Positions 32,333 to 33,905 of a stretch of DNA of 34,119 nucleotides are shown piece by piece. The notes below the pieces were generated by a model, which saw only the letters and a program-made list of their open reading frames with translations, was not told the DNA's origin and ran no database searches. The translations under genes and the position numbers were made by a program. This stretch comes from an uncultured bacterium (GTDB taxonomy: Bacteria; Patescibacteriota; Minisyncoccia; Phycocordibacterales; UBA9973), in assembly GCA_903907175.1 (NCBI GenBank), contig CAIVNB010000069.1, positions 1 through 34,119 on the forward strand, written 5' to 3'. Position 1 is the first letter of the stretch. Every line of letters begins with the position of its first letter.

Positions 32333-33364
32333 TTATATACCAGTTTTAGGCAAAAAGCTAGAAGCACTTGAAACCGCATAGCTTTCAATCTTACTTTTCA
32401 GCTTCTTGGCGTTGCCGTGGCTTACTAGCCCAAGATAGGATTGTATTGTTTCTGGCTTACCTTTTCGCCTCTCTATACCCCTAAACATCCTCTGTTTTGT
32501 AATAGTCCTAACCACTCTATGATCGGGAAATAAAACCCAGCCCAGAAAGTCCACGCCCGAGGCAACTGTGCTTATAGATACTTTTTTCGGATGCAGGTGG
32601 AGATTGAGTTCATTTTCAAGAAAATCTTTTATCTTGGGCAACATATCTACAAGCGACTGCTTATCATCCGATAAAATCACAAAATCATCGGCATAGCGAA
32701 TATAGTATTTTGCCTTAATTTTATGCTTCATAAACTGGTCAAACTTATTCATATAAATGTTTATAAATAATTGTGAGGTAAGATTACCAAGCGGAAGACC
32801 TTTACCCTTTTCGGTAGAATAAAAACTGCTGATAATCTCGTAGAGCAAAGAAACAATGTCAGTGTCTGGTATATAACTCTTTATCATTTCAAGCATCACC
32901 CCTTGGTCAATTGAAGCGAAAAACTTTCTTATATCTCCTTTCAAAACCCAAGCCGTTCTCGTATGATTTTTTGATACTTTGTAGGCAAACTTTCTAAACC
33001 TATCTATTGCTTTGTGTGTTCCCTTATTTACTCTGCAAGAATAGGAGTCGGCAATAAATGTCCTATCAAAAAATGGATACAGCACTCGGTAAATAGCGTG
33101 ATGTAATAATCGGTCCCGAACTTTTGCTTTATGTATATCTCTGGGTTTGGGGTCTGAAATCTTAAATGCTTCATATTCAGAATGTTTGTATGTTTTATTC
33201 ACTAGGTCCTGGTGAAGTGAAATTATATTAGCCATCAGATTTCTCTCAAACTCCTGCACATCTTTGCGAGATTTTTTGCCAACCTTAAACTCTTCCCACG
33301 CAGAGAGCAAGTTGTCTAACCAAATGATATAGTCATAATTATGAACAAGTTGAATGCGGGACAT
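32333..33364 (-). CDS. Diversity-generating retroelement (DGR)-type reverse transcriptase
   Basis: ISDPKPRDIHKAKVRDRLLHHAIYRVLYPFFDRTFIADSYSCRVNKGTHKAIDRF, WVLKGDIRKFFASIDQ, KGLPLGNLTSQLFINIYMNKFDQF (DGR-type GNxxSQ motif), YYIRYADDFVILSDD (YADD), LHLHPKKVSISTVASGVDFLGWVLFPDHRVVR. Confidence 0.93.
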   Translation of the reverse strand: MSRIQLVHNYDYIIWLDNLLSAWEEFKVGKKSRKDVQEFERNLMANIISLHQDLVNKTYKHSEYEAFKISDPKPRDIHKAKVRDRLLHHAIYRVLYPFFDRTFIADSYSCRVNKGTHKAIDRFRKFAYKVSKNHTRTAWVLKGDIRKFFASIDQGVMLEMIKSYIPDTDIVSLLYEIISSFYSTEKGKGLPLGNLTSQLFINIYMNKFDQFMKHKIKAKYYIRYADDFVILSDDKQSLVDMLPKIKDFLENELNLHLHPKKVSISTVASGVDFLGWVLFPDHRVVRTITKQRMFRGIERRKGKPETIQSYLGLVSHGNAKKLKSKIESYAVSSASSFLPKTGI

Positions 33365-33760
33365 ATTATTTATTCTACCCCCCCCCCCCCGCTTTTGCCA
33401 CTACTGGCAAAAGCGAAAAGCTGTTATTTACAGTGGATTACTTTTTACGAAACTTTGCCAAAAATCCACAAATATACTCTAGGGCAAAAGATTGATACTT
33501 TGTTTGTTGAGGTAATAGAGGCAATCTCTATCGCCACCTTTTTATCTCGTGAAGAAAAACAACCGTGGGTCCGACTGGCAATCAGAAAGACAGATACTCT
33601 CAAGATACTTTTGATGGTTTTATGGGAAGCAAAATCTATTGATAATAAAAAGTATCTTGCTTTATCTGTAAAAGTAGAAGAAATAGGAAAGATGCTCGGG
33701 GGTTGGAGTGGACAGCTCGCAAAACAAAACTCTCCCGCAATAAAGACGAGAGAGAAATGA
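33341..33760 (+). CDS. avd: Avd-like four-helix-bundle protein (DGR accessory variability determinant family); start uncertain (ATG 33341 or TTG 33395)
   Basis: LLAKAKSCYLQWITFYETLPKIHKYTLGQKIDTLFVEVIEAISIATFLSREEKQPWVRLAIRKTDTLKILLMVLWEAKSIDNKKYLALSVKVEEIGKMLGGWSGQL: KYTLGxKID...IGxMLGGW pattern of bacterial Avd/four-helix proteins, beside a DGR RT. Confidence 0.82.
   Translation: MNKLNAGHIIYSTPPPPLLPLLAKAKSCYLQWITFYETLPKIHKYTLGQKIDTLFVEVIEAISIATFLSREEKQPWVRLAIRKTDTLKILLMVLWEAKSIDNKKYLALSVKVEEIGKMLGGWSGQLAKQNSPAIKTREK
33378..33390 (+). repeat. C13 homopolymer (G13 on the - strand) at the avd/RT 5' junction
   Basis: tattctaCCCCCCCCCCCCCgctttt. Confidence 0.9.
33390..33415. repeat. Perfect 11-bp hairpin adjoining the C13 tract
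   Basis: CGCTTTTGCCA (33390-33400) CTAC TGGCAAAAGCG (33405-33415). Confidence 0.85.
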
Positions 33761-33905
33761 AAAGAGTTGCCAAAGCGGAGTGCGGGATTGTTGGAGTTCC
33801 AGTTGTTGTCCAGCCAGTTCCAGTTCACCACAACCTTGCCACCGTTCTCATAGAGATACGGGACATTCAGGTTGCCGTTGCGGTTCTGCACGAAATGTAT
33901 GGGAT
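33761..33905 (-). repeat. DGR template repeat (TR), approximate limits
   Basis: On the - strand: CAGAACCGCAACGGCAACCTGAATGTCCCGTATCTCTATGAGAACGGTGGCAAGGTTGTGGTGAACTGGAACTGGCTGGACAACAACTGGAACTCCAACAATCCCGCACTCCGCTTTGGCAAC. One frame reads QNRNGNLNVPYLYENGGKVVVNWNWLDNNWNSNNPALRFGN with 11 AAC and 2 AAT codons, as expected for an unmutated TR. Confidence 0.75.

Follow-up and report, generated by a model that had tools for sequence, protein, structure and literature searches.

The analyzed window comprises a whole contig of 34,119 nt from a Patescibacteria-type genome of 835 kb. At its right end, the contig carries a diversity-generating retroelement (DGR) with a reverse transcriptase (RT) gene, avd, and a template repeat (TR) (Table 1). 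The RT and avd genes are divergent with overlapping 5′ ends, and the DGR-type RT directly adjoins Avd. The positions assigned in a preliminary description of this DNA to the start codons of avd (ATG 33341) and RT (ATG 33364), to the C13 homopolymer (33378–33390), and to an in-frame TTG (33395) were all exact.

Table 1 Features of the DGR locus at the right end of the contig
Feature	Position	Strand	Observation
avd (accessory variability determinant)	33341..33760	+	Pfam bAvd PF22296, E 6.5e-11; ON at C13 from ATG 33341
DGR reverse transcriptase (RT)	32333..33364	-	RVT_1; ATG 33364, 13 nt past the G tract
C13 (+) / G13 (-) homopolymer	33378..33390	.	inside avd codons 13-17; proposed slippage tract
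avd start codon ATG	33341..33343	+	antisense to the RT His8 codon
Extended -10-like TGATATAGT	33325..33333	+	7 nt before ATG 33341; within RT codons 11-14
Perfect 10-bp inverted repeat adjoining the tract	about 33390..33416	.	
Template repeat (TR)	33767..33893	-	RT strand, beyond antisense avd
Alternative in-frame TTG, Leu of LPLL	33395..33397	+	judged not to be the main avd start

In a frame test from ATG 33341, avd was open at C10, C13, and C16, giving ORFs of 138, 139, and 140 aa, whereas C11, C12, C14, and C15 resulted in stops after 46 to 51 codons. The earlier claim that avd is in frame only with 13 or 13 ± 3n C residues was thus borne out. Runs of at least nine C or G residues occur just three times in the whole 835-kb genome, and C13 is therefore far from a chance occurrence. 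A second run was found at L304 (G000:C48, about 7023), where G10 lies within codons 9–13 of a gene (145 aa) from the DpnI/Dam-replacing family (PF06044, E 1.2e-8); this gene is in frame at G10, and either G9 or G11 leads to a stop within 20 codons. As judged from these frames, it is likely a second phase-variable gene of the genome and possibly encodes a restriction enzyme. The third run, at L306 (G000:C49, about 23917), is a G10 upstream of a small ORF (MEGAPIVNKDN...), and this G10 could represent a promoter-type tract. In other genomes of the genus, C9–C10 runs at L032, L033, L047, and L050 are located near DnaA boxes of the TTATCCACA type or near TGTGGATAA sequences and look like part of an origin region.

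The comparison set comprised 169 deduplicated divergent avd-RT loci, nearly all from Patescibacteria. A simple repeat within the first avd codons was present in 124 of them (73%), far above the genomic background of 12 in 4505 windows elsewhere in these loci (0.27%) obtained with the same detector; the 124 repeats, like C13 in the window, are long enough to slip and lie in the 5′ coding region. At the avd genes located on the RT strand, the same detector found no repeat in any of 65 loci. The repeat is a poly-C of 7–14 residues in 111 of the 124 repeat loci, and the others carry (GA)n, (CT)n, (CA)n, (CAAT)7, (AACC)10, (ACGA)9, (CAGC)n, (AGGAC)7, or one 7-mer at the same site, with (AACC)n found at L116. 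Among the 124 loci, the units are 1, 2, 4, 5, or 7 nt long and never 3 or 6, that is, never a multiple of three, as is typical of SSR phase-variable genes. Four loci that are 82–90% identical over 1.5 kb bear C9, (CAAT)7, (AACC)10, and (ACGA)9 at one spot. Since unrelated units replace poly-C, a C/G-specific function (Pro codons, Shine-Dalgarno sequence, quadruplex, or promoter spacer) cannot account for the repeat set, and since the repeat rather than its sequence is conserved, the repeat set fits a function via frame-shifting slippage.

Within the genus of the window, avd homologues were identified in 39 of 80 genomes, and the near ones have C7–C13 at the same place. A comparison of tract length among siblings, proposed in the preliminary description as a check, thus showed a tract kept at the same site with varying length. 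An RT-alignment search of species genomes added 80 loci from Patescibacteria; a run of at least seven G residues just upstream of RT was observed in 62 of 75 Patescibacteria loci with full flank versus 2 of 71 RT loci from viral contigs. No pair of distinct loci in the comparison set was more than 92% identical. Length variants of the same species were found neither in a pattern scan of viral contigs nor in plasmids, and the comparison covers one genome per species. In five Patescibacteria loci (L025, L030, L129, L139, and L145), the repeat is absent, broken, or short (e.g. CCCCGCCGCCGC in L139), and avd is in frame in all of them; as judged from their reading frames, these are natural locked-ON forms.

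Individual functions of the tract were also considered and rejected. A purely coding Pro stretch is at odds with tracts that occur in all avd frames and with their replacement by unrelated repeats. As a general role, a Shine-Dalgarno sequence of RT or a G-specific RNA/DNA element was discarded because (CAAT), (AACC), (ACGA), (CT), and (GA) substitute for the G tract. An IMH-like target site is unsupported, the tract being located between RT and avd and away from the TR and the variable repeat (VR).

The upstream ATG was in frame in 35 of the 124 repeat loci (28%; 47 would be expected for a random frame) versus 45 of 45 repeat-less loci (p = 2.4e-19), leaving 89 repeat loci that are not ON. For 120 of the 124, at least one of the three phases offers an ATG no more than 60 nt upstream. 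The ON/OFF state showed no phylogenetic signal (31 changes versus a shuffled mean of 30.0), and the presence of the repeat did (14 changes versus 40 in shuffles). Median dN/dS values for the avd body were 0.112 for OFF-OFF pairs, 0.098 for ON-ON pairs, and 0.037 for pairs of OFF alleles without any start codon. Thus, as known for SSR phase-variable genes, ON and OFF alleles coexist among relatives with an intact coding body under selection (dN/dS about 0.1). The purifying selection on OFF alleles indicates that they are expressed often enough to be selected, and reversible slippage would provide for that.

Most tracts derive from short-read MAGs, in which homopolymer length may be wrong, and OFF alleles might accordingly be homopolymer assembly errors or else decaying pseudogenes. 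Loci whose units are di- to heptanucleotides (n = 13) are free of the homopolymer problem; multi-base repeats are out of frame too, with 3 of 13 ON. Assembly errors alone would leave more than one-third of the loci ON, above the 28% seen, and would not account for a repeat in 73% of loci against 0.27% in the background; pseudogene decay is contradicted by dN/dS values of about 0.1 or lower. We therefore regard this explanation as scarcely credible. A MutS domain was not found in any of the 13 genomes of the genus searched and was present in 11 of 14 control genomes. Loss of mismatch repair increases slippage at short-unit repeats, and slippage would thus be favored in this genus.

The start of avd was evaluated together with its upstream region. 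As had been described, TGATATAGT is followed by 7 nt and ATG 33341, and in 52 repeat loci a TGnTAnnnT element is separated from the upstream ATG by exactly 7 nt. The element lies opposite RT codons, on the antisense strand, and RT could account for part of its constancy. At this site, however, 72 of 110 repeat loci use ATC as the RT Ile codon versus 584 of 2317 Ile codons of the same genes (p = 7e-18); in divergent repeat-less loci, 7 of 28 use it. The ATC excess points to an avd promoter retained within the RT gene, which would place the mRNA 5′ end at the ATG or close to it. The antisense avd ATG itself may partly be kept by the RT residue His8.

If avd began after the tract, at TTG 33395 in the window, tract length would be irrelevant to Avd and the tract would serve something else, a caveat already raised in the preliminary description. 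The TTG is present in frame at the Leu of LPxL, and TTG makes up 43% of the Leu codons at this position versus 16% in the body. However, it is as common without the repeat as with it (7 of 13 repeat-less loci with ATG, 23 of 52 OFF loci, 7 of 21 ON loci), and 19 out-of-frame repeat loci have no ATG, GTG, or TTG whatever that is able to start the current frame. In addition, the upstream ATG is always present in the repeat-less loci (n = 45), mostly 66–77 nt before the anchor, a fixed point in helix 1. The TTG is thus weakened as the main start, and an avd beginning after the tract appears distinctly improbable. TTG 33395 is a possible weak second avd start in the window, and downstream TTG/GTG codons could give some Avd in many loci, the window included.

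A perfect 10-bp hairpin, CGCTTTTGCC-ACTACT-GGCAAAAGCG, directly adjoins C13 and had escaped the earlier description. Stems beyond those in shuffled sequences were detected in 26 of 111 C-tract loci versus 1 of 45 repeat-less loci, and base pairs covary among relatives (L003–L024: CGC/GCG, CAC/GTG, AAC/GTT; AGCGC/GCGCT, AGTGC/GCACT). The hairpin may stimulate slippage or act in RNA; as a general component of the system it was rejected, being enriched in only part of the loci and mostly in the genus of the window. Some frameshift sites are likewise followed by a hairpin, and programmed frameshifting or transcriptional slippage could in principle yield some Avd at every tract length, which would result in a constant dose and no heritable switch. 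Most relatives lack the hairpin, however, no single phase is preferred among repeat loci, and neither the ribosome nor RNA polymerase would be expected to slip in this way on units of four, five, or seven nucleotides. We consider such a constant dose very improbable in comparison with a heritable change of tract length at replication.

The preliminary description had proposed that the tract switches avd by frame and at the same time RT by the spacing of its promoter. The comparative evidence given above strongly supports the avd half; the RT half was not supported, as the promoter arrangement is not conserved. The elements themselves are present as described: TAGAAT directly follows the G tract, 7 nt before the RT ATG, and TGGCAA lies 17 nt before TAGAAT. 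In addition, TAGAAT adjoins the tract in 10 poly-C loci, and a -10-like TAnnnT abuts it in 36 of 111. On the other hand, TGGCAA matches TTGACA at just 3 of 6 positions, the best -35 at the 36 loci mostly matches at 3–4 of 6, and the geometry is rare in the family, so that a -35/-10 pair conserved around the tract, as in a slippery spacer of the porA type, was not found. The commonest tract lengths of 7–10 would make spacers of 11–14 nt, and the di- to heptanucleotide arrays elsewhere (28–40 nt for tetranucleotides) cannot hold a promoter spacer. Joint switching of avd by frame and RT by promoter spacing in the window is therefore unlikely.

The two genes may be coupled in another way. In 90 of 123 repeat loci, and likewise in the window, RT has its own ATG after the repeat; since this ATG lies 13 nt after the G tract, the RT frame is independent of the tract, and coupling by reading frame is inapplicable to the window. 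The other 33 of 123 loci lack an RT ATG beyond the repeat, and 27 of these 33 have a phase that opens both genes. Where each gene has a single opening phase, this phase was shared in 17 of 17 loci without an RT ATG of its own versus 5 of 13 loci with one (Fisher p 2e-4). For L056 and L059, which are homologous at the starts, both genes are OFF at G10 (L056) and ON at G9 (L059). Part of the phase coincidence could stem from the shared codon register of antisense starts, and some RTs without an ATG after the repeat do have a TTG or GTG there. On balance, it is likely that a subset of relatives starts both avd and RT beyond the repeat, with one repeat switching both; as predicted from the reading frames, such a coupled switch probably exists in about a quarter of the relatives, the window not being among them.

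The activity of the DGR was assessed with the sibling genome G030, whose RT and TR are 91% and 93% identical to those of the window, respectively. Its TR-VR pair showed 18 differences in 127 nt, and 18 of 18 are located at an A of the TR. The G030 avd is out of frame (C9), as would be expected if the DGR had been active earlier and the majority captured by the assembly were now OFF. The assembly of the window yielded the TR alone and no VR; only 226 nt of contig follow the TR, and because the target gene adjoins the TR in G030, the target of the window DGR is probably located off the contig. Among 110 Patescibacteria loci, 109 have avd divergent from RT, on the strand opposite to the TR-RT interval, and a TR-RT transcript would consequently carry antisense avd. 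In DGRs of viral contigs, avd is mostly located on the RT strand (59 of 68).

Systems to which the locus can be compared are the SSR contingency loci of Neisseria, Haemophilus, Campylobacter, and Moraxella (e.g. PMC6321876, PMC5084427, PMC5320596), DGRs of the BPP-1 type and the clade 2 CPR DGRs of Roux et al. 2021 (PMC8144416), and phasevarions (PMC5149525). With SSR contingency loci, it shares 5′ coding poly-G/C, tetra-, and pentanucleotide repeats with units that are not a multiple of three, a conserved coding body, and a random distribution of ON and OFF, there across strains and here across relatives; it differs in that those loci comprise surface structure or restriction-modification genes, whereas avd codes for an accessory factor of hypermutation and the host belongs to the Patescibacteria. 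As in known DGRs, there are an RT, Avd, and a TR, with A-specific TR-to-VR differences in G030; unlike in those, avd is divergent, overlaps RT at its 5′ end, and bears a repeat, which same-strand avd loci lack (0 of 65). As in phasevarions and phase-variable mutators, one switching gene would alter many downstream outcomes, but the outcome here would be targeted sequence diversification instead of methylation or mutation across the genome. The full-text literature searched, most subscription papers being outside its reach, contained no report of a phase-variable DGR, in line with the preliminary description, which knew of no DGR controlled in this way. Both SSR phase variation and DGRs are well known.

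Taken together, we consider it highly likely, on the basis of these sequence comparisons, that the tract is an SSR contingency locus that switches avd by frame. In the proposed mechanism, slipped-strand mispairing at replication would alter the number of C residues, or of other units in relatives, in the first codons of avd, whose start would be an ATG on the antisense strand of the 5′ end of RT, the divergent gene. Avd would stay in frame at one repeat length in three; the others would truncate it, and OFF cells would lose the Avd protein. In the DGRs studied, Avd is required for mutagenic retrohoming. OFF cells of this lineage would therefore lose mutagenesis, and a population should mix cells with DGR mutagenesis ON and OFF. 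The repeat, frame, and selection data together are what characterizes an SSR contingency locus, and phase variation of DGR mutagenesis is therefore very probable in this Patescibacteria lineage. For Patescibacteria as a whole, we think it likely that DGR hypermutation is bet-hedged: the repeat in the gene overlap would switch Avd, and in a subset Avd and RT, and divide populations into a diversifying and a stable part.

DGRs are abundant in Patescibacteria, and how the cost of targeted hypermutation is limited is an open question. A heritable, reversible, and random DGR switch, if true, would explain how variable proteins are able to diversify and yet be retained. Annotation pipelines would call many of these avd genes truncated or overlook them. 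If the switch operates as proposed, metagenomes should show mixtures of avd repeat lengths, and new VR variants should be more numerous where the ON length is frequent.
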